Shown here one piece after another: positions 3,629-38,654 of a stretch of 58,955 nucleotides of DNA. This stretch comes from Bacillus sp. AZ43 (lineage in GTDB: Bacteria > Actinomycetota > Actinomycetes > Mycobacteriales > Geodermatophilaceae), in the NCBI GenBank assembly GCA_004570425.1, contig SPQJ01000026.1:1-58955 (forward strand). Direction: 5' to 3'. The translations under genes and the position numbers were made by a program. Position 1 is the first letter of the stretch. Each line of letters begins with the position of its first letter. Below the pieces are notes generated by a model that did no database searches, was not told the origin of the DNA, and saw nothing but the letters and a program-made list of their open reading frames with translations.

Positions 3629-6420
3629 CACGGTCCTTCCACCAGGGCCTCTCGGGGTCGTGGAGCCACCTTGGCGGCCAGTGCGGCCGCTTGTCCACGG
3701 TTGCTGACCTGGAGTTTGTGCAGGACACGGGACACATGGACGCCGACCGTGCGCTCGCTGATGAACAGGCGGCGGGCGATCTGCCGATTCGTCGCACCGG
3801 TTCCCAGCAGCTCCAGGACCTCCAGCTCCCGCTCGGTCAGGCCGTAGGGACGCTCCTCTGCGGGAGGCCGAGGCGCAGGCGCCGATGCCAGACGAGCGCG
3901 AGCAAGCAACGCATCGATCTCGCCGACGAGGGGGACGGCTCCCAGCCGTTCGGCCATGGCACGGGCGACCGACGCGGCAGCAGCCGCTCGATCCCGGCGC
4001 TTCTCCGCGACCCGGCACTCCGCCTCCCGGAACAGGCAGTACGCCTGCTCGAGCGGCCGGTCCACTGCCCTCCACAGGTCGGCTGCCGCAGCCCAGCCGC
4101 CGCCGGTGCCCACCCCGCGGGCGCGATCCAGCTCGTTGCGCGCGGTGCGGTGGTCGGCTTCCTGGACGGGGTCGTCGTCCCCGGTCGGCGTGAGCTCGTC
4201 GAGCTCCGCCGCCAGCTGTGCGATGCGCGCCTCGGCGCCCGGGGCGGGCACGGTCCCCCGTCGATCGGCTTCGTTGCGCAGCCCGATCGCCGTGAGCTCG
4301 GTCCGGAAGGCCCTGTCCTGCGTCTCCGCCAGCCGGCGCAACGCCTCCACGACGGTCCGGTGACATCCGTCGCGATCTCCCTCGCGCGCCTGCAACGCGG
4401 CGGTGGCGGTGGCGAGCGCAGCCACGACCGTCGGTTCGTCGGCATCGTGCAGCGGCGCCGCCGCGTCCAGACTGGCCCGCGCTCCGGCGGTGTCCCCGAC
4501 GGCGAGCCGGCACTCGGCCCGCTCGATGTACAGATGCAGCCCCTGGCCCTGGACGACCCGCCCGTCGAGCAGCTGGGAGAACACCGCCTCGCACCGCCCG
4601 TACTGACCGCGACGCCGGAGCATGGTCACCGCATTCGAGGCCAACGCCGAACCGACGGCCAGCTCCAGCCCGTACTCCGGGAGGAGGCTGAGGCCTTCCA
4701 GCGCCGCTGCGCTGGCCTCGGCGGGCAAGCCCGCGTAATCGTAGGCGATCATCAGGTTCGCGTAGCTCCGGCAGAGCACCGCCCGGTCCTCGACGTCGCG
4801 CGCCAGGCGGACCCCTTCGCGCAGGAGGTCCAGGGCGGACGAGTCACCGTGGAACGTCCCGGCGACACCGCGGGTGGTGAGCGCGTCGGCCAGGACGGCG
4901 TCGGTGCCGTGCTCCCGCGCCGCCGTCACGGCCTGCTCGGACAACCGGATGGCCTCGTCGAACTCAGCCATGATGAAGGCCGCCCTCGCCATCGCGCCCC
5001 AGACCTGCGCGTGGCAGGAGTTGACCTCCGGCCCGAGCACCTCCGTCGCCTCCGCATACACCGCCTGGCTCCGGCCCGGCTGACCCGCCTCCCAGAGAAA
5101 GCAGCCCAGCCGCTCGAGCGCGGTCGCCCGCTCCGCCGCCGGGATGTCCGGGTCTTGCAGGGCATGCTCCAGGAGCGCGGCGGCAGCACCGGGGTCGCCC
5201 GCCAGGCGCGCCACCCCGGCCGCCTCCAGCGCGAACTCGAGACCCCCGGCGTCCCGGCTCACCGGCCGGAACTGCAGGGCCCGCCGGTAGTGGGCCCAGG
5301 ACTCCGCGTACGCGTTCAGCCGGCGCGTGCTCCGAGCCGCGCGGAGGCTCCACTCGGCCGCCTGCTCGGACGATCCCGCCGCCTCCCAGTGGACGCTGAC
5401 CGCCGCCGCGGTCACGACGTCGTCCGACCGCCCGGCGGCCAGGGCACGGGCGGCGCGCTCGTGCAGCTCGCGCCGTTCGAAGGGCAGCAGCTGCGCCAGG
5501 ACCGCCTCGCACATGAGGCTGTGCCGGAACGCGTAGTCGGCGCCCTCCACGACGAGGACGCCGACGTCGACGGCCTCGCGCACCGCGGCGCCGTACCGCT
5601 CCGCGAGGAACCCCGACGCCCGGAAGAGGTGCTCGTCGGGCACCCAGAGACCGAAGACGGCCGCCACCCGCACGAGGGCGGCGGCGTCCTGACCGAGGCG
5701 CCGCACACGGGCGAGCAGCATGTCCGTGACCCGCCGGGAGCTGGGGTCCTTCACGAGCTCCCCGAGCAGGTAGGGGTGCCCCTGCGTCTGCTCGTACCAA
5801 GCACTCGCGTCTCCGGGATCGGTGCCGGTCAGTGCCGCGACCAGCTCGCGGGTCTCCGCCGGGTCGAGACGCTGCAGCTCCACGCAGGAGGCGCCCGGCA
5901 GCCGGGTGAGTTCGCCGATCGCCTCCTGCACCCGCGCCACGGGAGGGGTCTCGTCGTCGCGGATCGTGAGGACGATGCTCAGGGCGCGCCGGCGCGCGGT
6001 GGACCCCAGGTAGACGAGGAAGTCGCACGTGGTCTCGTCGGCCCACTGCAGGTCGTCGATGACCAGCGTCGTGGGGCTCGACGACCCGGCCGGCGCCAGG
6101 GCGTCGGCCCAGCGACGGATCGAGCGCAGGCGCTGCTCGGCCGACTGCTCGGCTCCGTCCGGGGCGTCCGGCCAGCCGCCGCGGGCGTCGAAGATCTGCT
6201 CGAGCGCGGCCAGCGGCAACGGTTGGCCGGCCAACTGGAGGCACGCGCCCTCGATGACGTCGGTGGCCGCTCCCCCGCGTTCGGCGGCCACGAGGGAGGT
6301 CTTGCCGACCCCGGCCTCGCCGAAGATCAGCACGACGTGACCGGGCTCGGCGAACGCGGCGGCGACCGTGGCCCGATGTTCAGCGCGCCCCACGTAGGGA
6401 ACAGCCCCTGCCCCGATCAC
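3628..6420 (-). CDS. LuxR-family (LAL-type) ATP-binding transcriptional regulator
   Basis: A 930-residue cytoplasmic regulator of the LAL class: N-terminal AAA-type ATPase, long helical TPR-like middle, C-terminal LuxR helix-turn-helix. Walker A GEAGVGKTS lies at about 34-42 and Walker B TLVIDDLQWAD at about 120-130, before a sensor-like region. The C-terminal domain (LTERELEVLELLGTGATNRQ ... RRLFISERTVGVHVSRVL) is complete. LALs activate genes in response to ligand and ATP, MalT being the model; this one's ligand is unknown. I prefer GTG at 6420, preceded by AGGA and starting just before the conserved VGRAEH; an ATG at 6546 would add 42 residues with no family character. The 63-aa gene overlaps its stop. 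Confidence 0.85.
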   Translation of the reverse strand: MIGAGAVPYVGRAEHRATVAAAFAEPGHVVLIFGEAGVGKTSLVAAERGGAATDVIEGACLQLAGQPLPLAALEQIFDARGGWPDAPDGAEQSAEQRLRSIRRWADALAPAGSSSPTTLVIDDLQWADETTCDFLVYLGSTARRRALSIVLTIRDDETPPVARVQEAIGELTRLPGASCVELQRLDPAETRELVAALTGTDPGDASAWYEQTQGHPYLLGELVKDPSSRRVTDMLLARVRRLGQDAAALVRVAAVFGLWVPDEHLFRASGFLAERYGAAVREAVDVGVLVVEGADYAFRHSLMCEAVLAQLLPFERRELHERAARALAAGRSDDVVTAAAVSVHWEAAGSSEQAAEWSLRAARSTRRLNAYAESWAHYRRALQFRPVSRDAGGLEFALEAAGVARLAGDPGAAAALLEHALQDPDIPAAERATALERLGCFLWEAGQPGRSQAVYAEATEVLGPEVNSCHAQVWGAMARAAFIMAEFDEAIRLSEQAVTAAREHGTDAVLADALTTRGVAGTFHGDSSALDLLREGVRLARDVEDRAVLCRSYANLMIAYDYAGLPAEASAAALEGLSLLPEYGLELAVGSALASNAVTMLRRRGQYGRCEAVFSQLLDGRVVQGQGLHLYIERAECRLAVGDTAGARASLDAAAPLHDADEPTVVAALATATAALQAREGDRDGCHRTVVEALRRLAETQDRAFRTELTAIGLRNEADRRGTVPAPGAEARIAQLAAELDELTPTGDDDPVQEADHRTARNELDRARGVGTGGGWAAAADLWRAVDRPLEQAYCLFREAECRVAEKRRDRAAAAASVARAMAERLGAVPLVGEIDALLARARLASAPAPRPPAEERPYGLTERELEVLELLGTGATNRQIARRLFISERTVGVHVSRVLHKLQVSNRGQAAALAAKVAPRPREALVEGP

Positions 6421-34244: not shown

Positions 34245-34925
34245 GTGACCGAGCTGTCGCCGACCGTGGCTGGAACAGTGGGAGCGGTGAGCCTGCCCCT
34301 GCTGGACTGGCGCCGCGCGACGGCCGGCCTCTACGCCGCCGCGCGAGCCGCCACCGATCCGGAGACCGGCTGGCGGACCTGGCGCGACGGCCGCGACGAG
34401 CTGTTCGCCGGCCACCCCGAGTCACCGCTCGACGAGGCCGCGCGGGCGGGCTTCCGGGGGCTGCCGTACGCGCCGTACGACCCCGGCCTGCGCTTCCAGC
34501 CCCTCGTCGAGCCGGCTCCCCCGGACCGGCGGGACATCGCGACGGCGGCGGACGGCGTGGTGCGCCTGGAGCGGATCGGCCGCGTGGCGCTCGGAGCCGT
34601 GGGCCGCGTCGACGTCTGGTGGCTGGCCGGCTACGGCGGCGGGGTGTTCCTGCCGCTGCGGGACGGCACCGCCGGTGCCACCACGTACGGCGGCGGGCGC
34701 TACCTGCTCGACACGATCAAGGGCGCCGACCTCGGCGGCGACGCCACCCGGCTGGTGGTGGACCTGAACTTCGCCTACCACCCGTCCTGCGCCTACGACC
34801 CGCGCTGGTCGTGCCCGCTCGCCCCCGAGGGCAACCGGGTGAGCGCCCCCGTCGCCGCCGGGGAGCAGTTGCCCCCCGGCGGCGACGGCTGGATCAGCCT
34901 CGCGCGAGGGCGCCGTCGGAGCTGA
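34245..34925 (+). CDS. DUF1684 domain-containing protein
   Basis: 226 residues of the DUF1684 family, whose function is not known. The hallmarks are GGRYLLDTIKGADLG and DLNFAYHPSCAYDPRWSCPL near the C-terminus, a conserved Tyr/His/Cys cluster that looks like an active or metal site. There is no signal peptide or membrane helix. GTG at 34245 is used; GTG at 34266 and 34287 are alternatives and none has a good ribosome site. The last 32 bases overlap the 3' end of the convergent binding-protein gene. Its place here interrupts the usual folate-pantothenate neighbourhood. Confidence 0.75.
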   Translation: MTELSPTVAGTVGAVSLPLLDWRRATAGLYAAARAATDPETGWRTWRDGRDELFAGHPESPLDEAARAGFRGLPYAPYDPGLRFQPLVEPAPPDRRDIATAADGVVRLERIGRVALGAVGRVDVWWLAGYGGGVFLPLRDGTAGATTYGGGRYLLDTIKGADLGGDATRLVVDLNFAYHPSCAYDPRWSCPLAPEGNRVSAPVAAGEQLPPGGDGWISLARGRRRS

Positions 34926-35889
34926 ACACCAGGCCGATCGAGATCTCGCCCTGCTGGATGGCGGCCTTGGTCAACGGACCACCGGCGTCCAGCTCGCGGA
35001 AGCTGTCGAACTCCAGGCCGTAGGTGTCCTCCAGGCCCGGCTGGCAGAACGGCCGCTCCGGGCACTCGGCGGGGCCGCCGAGGACAAGCGAGCCGTCGCC
35101 GCAGGCCTCGGCCAGCTCCGACAGCGTGCTCACGCCGAGCTCGTCGGCGAACGCCTGGGTGACGGCGAACGCGTTCTGGTCGGCGGCCTCCGACGGCTCG
35201 CCGAAGACCAGGCCGTTGGCCTCGGCGAGCGGGGTCAGCGCCTCGACGGTGGCCTCGACGTCCCCGGAGGCCACCTCGGTCGCGTCGTCCCCCTCGAGGA
35301 ACTCGGTGACCGTGGAGAGGTACTCCGGGAAGACCTGGATCTGGCCGTCCTTCAGCGCCTGCAGGTAGAGCTCGCGGTTGCCGACCTCCTGCACCGTGGC
35401 GTCGAAGCCCGCGGCGGTGAGCACGTCGGCGTAGATGGTGGCGAGCACCGTGGACTCGGTGAAGTTGGCCCCGCCCACGACGATCGAACCGCTGCCCTGC
35501 TCCAGCCCGTCGGTGACACCGCTCTCCTCGACCCAGCCGGCCGCCACGTCGGCGGCGCTCTGCCGCTCGACGTCGACGGCCGCGTTGAGCTCGATGAGGT
35601 CGTCGGTGGTCAGCGCCGCCGACACCGCGTTCAGCGCGGGGAGGAGGGCCGGGTCGGCCTGCGCGGCCGCCGCGTTGACCGCGGGGATGACGTTGTCGGC
35701 GTTCTGCAGCTGCTGGTCGTCCTCGAGGACGACCAGCTGGTCGCCCTCGATCGGGGCGCAGGCGTCGCCGGAGGCGGTGCCACCCCCGCTCCCGCCGTCG
35801 TCGGTGCCGGAGGAACCGGACTCCCCGCAGGCCGTGGTCAGCGCGAGTGCGACCGCGATCGGCGCGAGGATCCGAGTGCGTGCGCGCAT
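34894..35889 (-). CDS. Circularly permuted osmoprotectant-type ABC substrate-binding lipoprotein
   Basis: 331 residues with a lipoprotein signal (LAPIAVALALTTAC, Cys about 21) and a Gly/Ser spacer. The OpuAC-type fold is present in swapped order. Residues about 50-130 (VVLEDDQQL, NVIPAVN, ALNAVSAALTTDDLIELN, VDVERQSAADVAA) match what is normally the C-terminal end of OpuBC/OpuCC proteins. Residues about 137-331 (IVVGGANFTESTVLATIYAD ... GGPAECPERPFCQPGLEDTYG ... LDAGGPLTKAAI ... LVFSSDGALARG) match the normal first part. The protein ends where a canonical one would continue into VLEDD. It should still bind a quaternary amine; the ligand is unproven. A 124-bp gap with two hairpins separates it from the permease genes. 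Confidence 0.82.
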   Translation of the reverse strand: MRARTRILAPIAVALALTTACGESGSSGTDDGGSGGGTASGDACAPIEGDQLVVLEDDQQLQNADNVIPAVNAAAAQADPALLPALNAVSAALTTDDLIELNAAVDVERQSAADVAAGWVEESGVTDGLEQGSGSIVVGGANFTESTVLATIYADVLTAAGFDATVQEVGNRELYLQALKDGQIQVFPEYLSTVTEFLEGDDATEVASGDVEATVEALTPLAEANGLVFGEPSEAADQNAFAVTQAFADELGVSTLSELAEACGDGSLVLGGPAECPERPFCQPGLEDTYGLEFDSFRELDAGGPLTKAAIQQGEISIGLVFSSDGALARG

Positions 35890-36013: not shown

Positions 36014-36751
36014 TCACAGGGGCACGCCGGAGACCGGCAGCGGCTCGGCGGTCCCGCCCGGCCGACCGCGCCGGATCCCGGCGAAAGGGGACGTCCGGGG
36101 TCCCGGCGCGAGCGCCCACGAGACGACGACGAGGACCAGCTCGGTGAGCAGCGCGAGGACGGCGATGAGGAGCGCCCCGGCGATGATCTGGCCGTAGTCC
36201 TGCTGGCCGAAGCCGAGGTTGACGATCCGCCCGAGGCCGCCGCCCCCGACCAGCGCGGCCAGCGAGGCGGTCGCGACGACCTGCACCGCCGCCGTCCGCA
36301 CGCCGGTCATGACCAGCGGCAGGGCGAGCGGCAGGTCGACCCGGGCCACCACCTGGCCGCGGCGCAGCCCCATGGCCCGCGCCGCCTCGCGGACGTCGGG
36401 GTCCACCCCCCGGATCCCGACGAAGGTGTTGGTCAGGATCGGCGGCACCGCGAACACCGCCAGCGCGATCGTCGTGGCCCGGTTGCCGAAGCCGATCGGG
36501 CTGACGGCGAACAGGGTGAGCAGGGCCAGGGTCGGGACGGCGCGGCTGACGTTGGCGACGACGACCACCAGGCCGCTCCCCCGCCCCGAGACGCCCATCG
36601 CGACACCCACCGGCACGGCCAGGACGACGGCGGCCAGGACCGCGACCGCGGAGATGCCGAGGTGCTCGCCGAGGAGGTCGAGGATGCCGCCCCGGCGGGT
36701 CCAGTTGAGCGGGTCGTTGAGGTAGACCAGCGCGTCGGAGAAGCCGGTCAC
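36014..36751 (-). CDS. Osmoprotectant-type ABC transporter permease (second)
   Basis: 245 residues, about six membrane helices, binding-protein-dependent (BPD) permease fold. The cytoplasmic coupling loop is EAARAMGLRRGQVVARVDLP. The start VTGFSDALVYLNDPLNWTRRGG matches the second OpuB/OsmU permease, which typically has a short soluble N-terminus. GTG at 36751 overlaps the first permease stop by four bases (GTGA). The C-terminus has an Arg/Pro-rich extension (RRGRPGGTAEPLP). Confidence 0.88.
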   Translation of the reverse strand: MTGFSDALVYLNDPLNWTRRGGILDLLGEHLGISAVAVLAAVVLAVPVGVAMGVSGRGSGLVVVVANVSRAVPTLALLTLFAVSPIGFGNRATTIALAVFAVPPILTNTFVGIRGVDPDVREAARAMGLRRGQVVARVDLPLALPLVMTGVRTAAVQVVATASLAALVGGGGLGRIVNLGFGQQDYGQIIAGALLIAVLALLTELVLVVVSWALAPGPRTSPFAGIRRGRPGGTAEPLPVSGVPL

Positions 36752-37440
36752 GTCCGCACCCGCGCCCAGGGGGTGAGCAGCCGTCCGGCGCCGGCCAGCA
36801 GCAGGTCGGCGACCAGCGCGAGCAGCACGCACCCGACCGTCCCGGTGACGATCTCCGCCCGGTAGAAGTTCGCGTTGAAGCCGCCGATGATCAGCTGGCC
36901 GAGACCGCCGTGCCCGACGATCACGCCCACGGTGGTGAGCGCGACGGTGGACACGGTGGCGATGCGCAGCCCGGCCATGAAGGCCGGCAGGGCGAGCGGG
37001 AGGTCGATCCCCCAGAACAGCCGCGCCGGGCCGTAGCCCATCCCCCGGGCCGCCTCGCGGACGTCGTCGGGCACGCCCTGCAGCCCGGTGAGGAAGTTGC
37101 GCACCAGGATCACCAGCGAGTACGCGGTCAGCCCGACGAGCACCGTCGTCGCGGTGAGCCCGGTGAACGGGAACACCAGCGCGAACATCGCCAGCGAGGG
37201 GACCGTGTAGACGACCGTCGACAGCCCGAGCACCGCGCTCCCCAGGAGCCGGTTGCGGCGGGCCAGCAGCGCCAGGGGCAGGGCGATGGCCGACCCGATC
37301 AGGACGGCGCCGGTCGTCAGCCGCACGTGCTCGCCGAGGTACCCCAGAATGGTGTCCCAGTTGTCGGCGACGTAGGAGCCGTCGAACCAGGGGTTGGGTG
37401 CCTCGTCGAGTGCGAGCACCCGGCCCTCCGCCGCGCTCAC
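36748..37440 (-). CDS. Osmoprotectant-type ABC transporter permease (first)
   Basis: 230 residues. The opening FDGSYVADNWDTILGYLGEH is typical of the OpuBB/OpuCB type, and the coupling loop is EAARGMGYGPARLFWGIDLP. With the second permease, the ATPase and the binding protein it forms a complete importer for glycine betaine, choline or carnitine-like solutes; substrate unproven. GTG at 37440 lies only 26 bp from the divergent ATPase start, so the two promoters must lie within or across each other's coding sequence. Confidence 0.88.
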   Translation of the reverse strand: MSAAEGRVLALDEAPNPWFDGSYVADNWDTILGYLGEHVRLTTGAVLIGSAIALPLALLARRNRLLGSAVLGLSTVVYTVPSLAMFALVFPFTGLTATTVLVGLTAYSLVILVRNFLTGLQGVPDDVREAARGMGYGPARLFWGIDLPLALPAFMAGLRIATVSTVALTTVGVIVGHGGLGQLIIGGFNANFYRAEIVTGTVGCVLLALVADLLLAGAGRLLTPWARVRT

Positions 37441-37466
37441 CGGGCGCCGTCCAGGAAGGCCACGGC

Positions 37467-38654
37467 GTGGACGCTACTGCGCACGCTCGCGACCGCGCGA
37501 GCACTCCGGCCGCCGCCGAGATCCGGCTGGAGGGCGTGAGCAAGGTCTTCGCCGACGGCACGGTGGGCGTCGCGGAGCTGGACCTCACCGTCCCGGCCGG
37601 CGAGCTCACCGTGCTGGTGGGCCCGTCCGGGTGCGGCAAGACGACGACGATGAAGATGATCAACCGGCTGATCGAGCCGACGACGGGGCGGATCCTCGTC
37701 GGCGGCGAGGACGTCACCCGGGTCGACCCGAACGAGCTGCGCCGCCGGATCGGCTACGTCATCCAGAGCATCGGGCTGTTCCCCCACCAGACCGTGCGCG
37801 CCAACGTCGGCACCGTCCCCCGGTTGCTGGGCTGGGACAAGCGGCGGACCCGGGCGCGCGTCGACGAGCTGCTGGCCACGGTCGGCCTCGACCCCGCGGT
37901 GCACGGCGACCGCTACCCCGCCCAGCTCTCCGGGGGCCAGCGGCAGCGGGCGGGGGTCGCCCGGGCCCTGGCGGCCGACCCGGCGGTGCTGCTGGTCGAC
38001 GAGCCGTTCTCCGCCGTCGACCCGGTCGTGCGGGAGCGGCTGCAGTCGGAGTTCCTCCGGCTGCAGGAGACGGTGCGCAAGACGATCGTGTTCGTCACCC
38101 ACGACATCGAGGAGGCCGTGCGGCTCGGCGACCGGATCGCGGTCATGAGCCAGGGCGGGCACGTGGAGCAGTTCGCGACGCCGGCCGAGCTGCTGGGCCG
38201 GCCGGCCAACGCCTTCGTCGCCGACTTCGTGGGCGCCGACCGCGGCCTCAAGCGCCTGGCGGTCACCGCCATCGACGCCGCGGACCTGGAGCAGCCGCCG
38301 ATCGTGCACGTCGACGACGGGCTGGCCGACGCCCGGTCGGCGCTGACGCGCAGCGGTGCCCGGTGGGCCGTCGTGCTGGACGGCGCCGGCAGCCTGCACG
38401 GGTGGCTGTCCGCCGAGCGGGCCGGGGGCAGCGGGACCGTCCGCGACGCCTGCCGCCGCATGGATGCCTGGGTGCCGCGGAACGCCTCGCTGAAGACGGC
38501 GTTCGCCACGATGCTGCAGCACGAGGCCGGCTGGGTCGCGGTGCTGGACGGCGACCGGTTCCTCGGCGTCCTGACACCGGAGTCGCTGCACGCGGCGCTG
38601 CGCCGCTCGGTCGAGGGCTGGGCGCCCGAGACCGCAGGCGCGGCCCGCTCCTAG
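37467..38654 (+). CDS. Osmoprotectant-type ABC transporter ATP-binding protein with CBS pair
   Basis: 395 residues. The ABC domain (about 15-255) has Walker A GPSGCGKTT, signature LSGGQRQRAGVARAL, Walker B AVLLVDEPF and the switch FVTHD. The C-terminal 135 residues hold a degenerate CBS pair (RWAVVLDGAGSLHGWLS and GWVAVLDGDRFLGVLTPES), the module that senses ionic strength in OpuA/OpuC ATPases. GTG at 37467 is set by AGGAAGG seven nt upstream. It is divergent from both permeases instead of heading one operon. Its stop shares CTAG with the stop of the RibD-domain gene. Confidence 0.9.
   Translation: MDATAHARDRASTPAAAEIRLEGVSKVFADGTVGVAELDLTVPAGELTVLVGPSGCGKTTTMKMINRLIEPTTGRILVGGEDVTRVDPNELRRRIGYVIQSIGLFPHQTVRANVGTVPRLLGWDKRRTRARVDELLATVGLDPAVHGDRYPAQLSGGQRQRAGVARALAADPAVLLVDEPFSAVDPVVRERLQSEFLRLQETVRKTIVFVTHDIEEAVRLGDRIAVMSQGGHVEQFATPAELLGRPANAFVADFVGADRGLKRLAVTAIDAADLEQPPIVHVDDGLADARSALTRSGARWAVVLDGAGSLHGWLSAERAGGSGTVRDACRRMDAWVPRNASLKTAFATMLQHEAGWVAVLDGDRFLGVLTPESLHAALRRSVEGWAPETAGAARS

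Follow-up and report, generated by a model that had tools for sequence, protein, structure and literature searches.

The minus-strand open reading frame (ORF) at positions 34894-35889 of contig SPQJ01000026.1 (Bacillus sp. AZ43, Geodermatophilaceae; the whole analyzed stretch of 58,955 nucleotides is called the window) was present as annotated and encodes 331 amino acids. Its product is very probably a substrate-binding lipoprotein of an OpuB/OpuC-type ATP-binding cassette (ABC) importer with a circularly permuted mature domain. Canonical relatives show the block order A-B-C with the lipid anchor in front of block A; the clade containing this protein is opened between SSDG and VLEDD and shows the order C-A-B. 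An earlier reading made from the letters of the DNA (the sequence-only reading) had proposed a circular permutation relative to OpuBC/ProX with a cut in the loop from STDG to VLEDD. The same cut point was found here. The permutation gains support from the Pfam and phmmer matches, from structure comparison with sequential aligners and from the recurrence of the order in many genomes. The cysteine pair and the differently opened relatives described below go beyond that reading. The protein and its parts are as follows.

34894..35889, minus strand: permuted substrate-binding lipoprotein, block order C-A-B, assigned from the ORF, the split PF04069 match and relatives
35827..35889, minus strand: signal peptide with lipid-bearing Cys21 (LTTAC), motif assigned by eye
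35758..35760, minus strand: Cys44, located in the new N-terminal arm and possibly disulfide-bonded to Cys263
35509..35739, minus strand: block C, residues 51-127, with AlphaFold2 strands 52-56 and 66-72
35491..35508, minus strand: short linker within GLEQGSGS, from the old C-terminus to the old N-terminus
35098..35490, minus strand: block A, residues 134-264, IVVGGANFTES to SELAEAC, N-terminal part of canonical OpuBC
35101..35103, minus strand: Cys263, directly past helix 256-262
34909..35094, minus strand: block B, residues 266-327, LVLGGPAECPERPFC to SSDGA, near the new C-terminus

Block order of the binding protein

The whole protein matched the Pfam family PF04069 with 150.4 bits (9.5e-44). 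The match was not collinear across the profile but consisted of two stretches in swapped order, both above the cut-off of 21.2 bits: positions 35524-35739, within block C, correspond to profile positions 187-257 (51 bits), and positions 34903-35487, comprising blocks A and B, correspond to profile positions 2-184 (99.3 bits). The gene reads on the minus strand, so the former stretch is the upstream one, and in the protein the C-terminal part of the profile precedes the N-terminal part. The profile is independent of the alignments made by us, and the controls were collinear, with a single stretch of 2-257 in locus L088 and of 2-256 in locus L133 of the same genome. The two PF04069 matches in the host genome that lie on contigs C54 and C60 show the canonical order.

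A phmmer search against the PDB gave the same picture. Residues 131-324 matched positions 3-192 of Archaeoglobus fulgidus ProX (1sw2) and residues 51-125 matched positions 200-273, the latter piece being weak when taken alone (i-Evalue 0.061). For EgtUC (9egh), residues 135-330 matched positions 7-198 and residues 45-125 matched positions 194-274 (i-Evalue 0.00038); the protein is thus homologous to both ProX and EgtUC in both blocks. AlphaFold2 predicted a confident fold, which sequential aligners paired with canonical ProX/OpuBC only piecewise; model residues from about 134 to 331 share the fold with ProX/OpuBC-type proteins. The best structural matches were ProX/OpuAC-type proteins. Among 354 plasmid records matched by tblastn, none showed a single place with 80% query coverage; in the 30 plasmid rows listed, coverage was about 55-60% (block A-B), as expected for canonical order.

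Block C contains the VVLEDD strand, the NVIPAVN strand and helices, and represents the C-terminal part of canonical OpuBC. That the VVLEDD block leads, as the sequence-only reading had stated, agrees with the Pfam match, and the QGSGS junction ahead of IVVGGANFTES and the chain end LVFSSDGALARG were found as described. The block had also been placed straight after the lipoprotein cysteine. It is indeed the first block, but it does not directly follow the lipid-bearing residue, since Cys21 and Cys44 are separated by a 22-residue stretch with many Ser and Gly residues. Cys21 was invariant in all 47 aligned rows, and LTTAC, which we take to be a lipoprotein signal by the usual lipoprotein rule, is in keeping with a Gram-positive lipoprotein.

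ProX, OpuBC, OpuCC and EgtUC are solute-binding proteins of subcluster F-III (PMC9732360). They run A-B-C, with the N-terminus on lobe I and an aromatic cage; the protein described here departs from this OpuB/OpuC-type chain order. Permutation among glycine betaine binding proteins has been reported from structures 2B4L, 1R9L and 1SW1 (PMC2395249), and relative to Escherichia coli ProX, Bacillus subtilis OpuAC (2b4l) has the order B-C-A. One alternative is that the order was inherited within the known permuted OpuAC class of the B. subtilis or Lactococcus lactis type. We consider this very improbable: OpuAC is opened before block B and our protein at a different place, so that it does not show the order of that class; ProX and EgtUC are the best solved relatives by sequence, and OpuAC is absent from the 24 phmmer matches; the nearest relatives in the trees described below, which were built without Bacillus-type OpuAC, are canonical; and the structural match has the C-A stretch in common. 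Inheritance from OpuAC was thus judged unlikely by order and sequence.

A further permuted protein is the glucose-binding lipoprotein TpMglB-2 (Tp0684), termed 'Type Ic', for which tethering was proposed as a possible reason (PMC4990184). It resembles our protein as a lipid-tethered binding protein of rotated order and differs in its Type I / cluster B fold, its sugar ligand and its permutation in the N lobe (PMC4990184); it was not among the 50 structural matches listed. Since OpuAC (as compared to ProX) and TpMglB-2 are already permuted, the C-A-B order is a variant of a known phenomenon, and this variant is what is new here. No description that we recognized of the C-A-B order, the cysteine pair or repeated permutation in actinobacteria was found in the literature searched, which included a minority of subscription journals; the text of PMC2861598 contains neither 'permut' nor 'swap'.

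Distribution and phylogeny of permuted relatives

A scan of genome contigs yielded 148 relatives, and the analysis covered the best 80 of them. All 80 had blocks C, A and B spanned by one high-scoring segment pair with 53-88% identity. They belong to Blastococcus, Geodermatophilus, Modestobacter, Demequina, Actinotalea, Cellulomonas and Catellatospora, a few records being metagenome bins. Genomes were furthermore surveyed with a permuted alignment (A1), counting matches through all blocks. C-A-B genes were found in at least 79 of 96 genomes of the own family, at least 17 of 394 of the class and, among the matches listed, at least 2 of 396 of the phylum. In that family, one genome (G776) had a partial match at a contig end and 16 had no match at E 1e-60. 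Five candidates per genome were scored in the phylum and class surveys and in the survey of other orders described below; because not all candidates were scored, survey counts are lower bounds. An assembly or gene-model error that swapped the halves of an ordinary gene, for which solely the unusual order within the protein family would speak, has a negligible probability. The order recurs in the relatives from many separate assemblies and in the family and class genomes, and the divergent member L152 retains both the order and the cysteine pair; such a swap was therefore excluded.

Two observations concern individual genomes. Five genomes of one genus, g363 (G772, G779, G790, G800, G804), carry two adjacent C-A-B genes each. 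The C-A-B gene L067 lies on a contig binned as Spirochaetaceae, sits on a short branch beside actinobacterial bins and is probably mis-binned.

Block orders were called in 150 ORFs with seven segment profiles from alignments made by us. We found 41 ORFs with A-B-C (segment i undetected in seven of them), 94 with C-A-B, 11 with B-C-A plus one truncated at a contig end, and two with block B split (B2-C-A-B1); these counts reflect how loci were retrieved and are not frequencies. The linker between segments d and e comprised 6-10 residues across the 94 C-A-B ORFs. L126 had five segments only and was assigned to the split-B type from its Pfam match and by eye. The best PF04069 stretch ended at profile position 111 in L108 (B-C-A), at 145-148 in L128, L129 and L126, and at 183 in L075 (C-A-B), so that Pfam agrees with the segment profiles, of which it is independent. 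The phylum survey of 396 genomes gave B-C-A in at least 12, with the gene truncated at a contig end in two of these (G058, G064), and split-B in at least two (G374, G382); the survey of other orders used a threshold of E 1e-50. A duplicated block B ('BCAB'), considered for L095 and L103, was rejected; both have one block B divided by the cut. Separately, locus L135 (G107:C16:243500-252500) contains an 878-amino-acid frame with tandem PF04069 domains at 3645-4394 and 4473-5219 and a permease-like match upstream; tandem duplication of this domain thus exists in the superfamily.

For phylogenetic analysis, sequences were rotated to a common order. A quick tree comprised 92 rows, including 35 of the 94 C-A-B ORFs, with L126 and the incomplete L124 excluded; for a careful tree of 74 rows, 18 more were left out by thinning or exclusion, including E. 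coli OsmF and L002 because of their long branches. C-A-B proteins were placed among canonical relatives from the class, and the other rotated types elsewhere among different canonical relatives. Approximately unbiased (AU) tests on the 74 rows rejected a single clade of all permuted rows (p 1e-6), C-A-B joined with B-C-A (p 3e-7) or with split-B (p 2e-4), B-C-A joined with split-B (p 2e-4), and B-C-A alone (p 0.007). Monophyly of C-A-B was not rejected (p 0.33), nor was that of B-C-A without L121 (p 0.08), a grouping chosen after seeing the tree. The rejections held when L121 was removed, the weakest being B-C-A with split-B (p 0.02). L126 (2615-3538, minus strand), opened in the middle of block B, grouped with E. 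coli OsmF (100/99), and its joint clade with split-B was rejected in a hand-picked set of 35 rows (p 0.002); this single gene from a draft genome is probably a separate permutation. There seem to have been at least five permutation events if the single draft-genome genes L121 and L126 are trusted, and three otherwise.

Signal peptides were also compared. Those of ten B-C-A proteins and 11 canonical neighbors, hand-picked from the tree, were alike, with a mean score of 25.5 as compared to 3.2 (standard deviation 6.7) for shuffled partners; 60 of 110 pairs exceeded the 99th percentile of the shuffles. B-C-A signal peptides also scored above shuffles against other canonical proteins (14.2) and against C-A-B (15.6), and C-A-B against its own canonical neighbors reached 15.6, no higher than against B-C-A. 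The likeness would suit a permutation behind a retained signal peptide for B-C-A and is uninformative for C-A-B.

Lipid anchor, cysteine pair and binding pocket

In EgtUC, D1 comprises residues 232-331 and 445-503 and D2 residues 341-432 (PMC9732360). In this numbering the cuts fall at about 423-428 for C-A-B, 366 for B-C-A and 396 for split-B; the positions are approximate, hand-read from one phmmer alignment that is consistent with the numbering in PMC9732360. Since by this alignment all cuts lie inside D2 (lobe II), each permutation would probably relocate the lipid anchor, from lobe I in the canonical order to lobe II, in keeping with the earlier suggestion that the tether moves to another face of the fold. 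A break at the hinge crossover with the cysteine pair as its replacement was also considered and dropped, because, by these domain limits and the phmmer alignment, the cut lies within lobe II and precedes the second linker by a few residues.

Cys44 and Cys263 were invariant in the 47 rows of alignment A1. A census of the 150 ORFs (distinct sequences with at least five of the seven segments; ORFs below this were left out) found both together in all 94 C-A-B ORFs, which are relatives of one another and possibly go back to a single event, as compared to none of 56 others, including the 41 canonical actinobacterial ORFs. Of these 56, L120 and L190 have a cysteine in the first window only, and none has one at the place of Cys263. 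The pair Cys276/Cys282 is common to other block orders too. By elimination, this distribution suggests a Cys44-Cys263 disulfide pinning the new N-terminal arm to lobe II. The canonical-order proteins L159 and L160 (G406, G484) have a cysteine in the tether arm (SLCGGQ, AYCGGQ) and another in block A (ECGYD, GCGYD); these may form a similar staple on their anchor-bearing lobe.

The aromatic cage of EgtUC consists of F293, Y341, Y419 and Y443 (PMC9732360). The positions aligned to it are Tyr190, Asn239, Phe322 and Asp65, with Asp237 in place of Asn339; two of four are aromatic, and the full aromatic cage for quaternary ammonium compounds (betaine/choline) is absent. Tyr190, Asp237, Asn239 and Asp65 were invariant across the 94 C-A-B ORFs and mostly kept in 42 canonical, 12 B-C-A and two split-B rows, with Asp or Glu at position 65 (L002, L126 and L198 were left out of this alignment and L134 was never included). 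Because pocket residues are kept across rotations, the rotated and canonical proteins may share one ligand type, which is probably not betaine. Mycobacterium tuberculosis ProX, an actinobacterial ProX reported to lack the conserved aromatic residues, reportedly did not bind betaine, choline or carnitine and bound polyphenols at 20-70 µM (PMC5894108).

The A-B-C order would be the older one. The rotated chain presumably folds into the same two-lobed clamp, which would catch a small solute between its lobes and hand it to two permeases; the anchor would now exit lobe II instead of lobe I, and the putative disulfide would fasten the freed arm there. The likely origin is that the region coding for the mature protein was duplicated and its outer parts were then lost, and the same kind of event seemingly took place separately in other actinobacterial relatives. 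With the betaine cage largely lost, the protein might instead have left transport and become a sensor or extracytoplasmic scaffold; this is improbable, as the gene stays beside importer genes in 78 of the 80 relatives.

We tentatively propose, as a possibility rather unlikely on present evidence, that there were at least five such events in actinobacteria (two of them based on the single genes L121 and L126), with three cut points and always moving the anchor in the same direction, and that they were selected because anchoring through lobe II would relieve the lobe that binds the ligand or favor docking to a two-subunit permease, the C-A-B disulfide staple bearing the strain of the tether. An old permutation with later reversals would also be compatible with the AU tests taken alone, but is the longer route, since the cut points differ. 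Separate cuts in lobe II and a cysteine pair prove no selection, as ends in lobe II may just be better tolerated. That the permutation arose by neutral chance and has no consequence, the cysteines merely stabilizing an unavoidable new end, is somewhat less likely than not: Tyr190, Asp237, Asn239 and Arg172 of the pocket are much alike across rotations and neighboring genes are unchanged, but several apparently separate openings in lobe II and the strictly kept cysteine pair hint at constraint.

Natural circular permutations are mostly viewed as ancient, one-off differences that separate distant proteins. In the present case, a single family within one phylum contains the canonical order and three others with different openings, alongside closely related canonical proteins, the same neighbors and similar pockets. 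Because such orders coexist, the family offers a natural experiment on why proteins permute and on what the place of the anchor does for an ABC importer. Permuted proteins of this kind are split by domain profiles.

Importer genes and adjacent sequence

The genes next to the binding-protein gene are those of an OpuB/OpuC-type system, an ATPase with a CBS region and two BPD_transp_1 permeases.

36014..36751, minus strand: permease 2 (BPD_transp_1; PF00528, 4.3e-23), conserved place
36748..37440, minus strand: permease 1 (BPD_transp_1; PF00528, 1.4e-19), conserved place
37398..38654, plus strand: divergent ATPase with CBS region (PF00005, 3.5e-35; PF00571, 2.7e-08); start approximate, searched from 37455

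The layout of divergent ATPase, permease 1, permease 2 and substrate-binding protein is the one shared by the 78 relatives mentioned above; L020 and L046 showed no ATPase match in the 1.4-1.7 kilobases or so of upstream sequence present there. The same layout was found at the canonical loci L136 and L137 and the split-B loci L128 and L129. At six B-C-A loci the ATPase lies on the same strand, unlike the divergent C-A-B arrangement. On the other side, a convergent DUF1684 ORF (34245-34925, plus strand) shares 32 bases (34894-34925) with the 3' end of the binding-protein gene.
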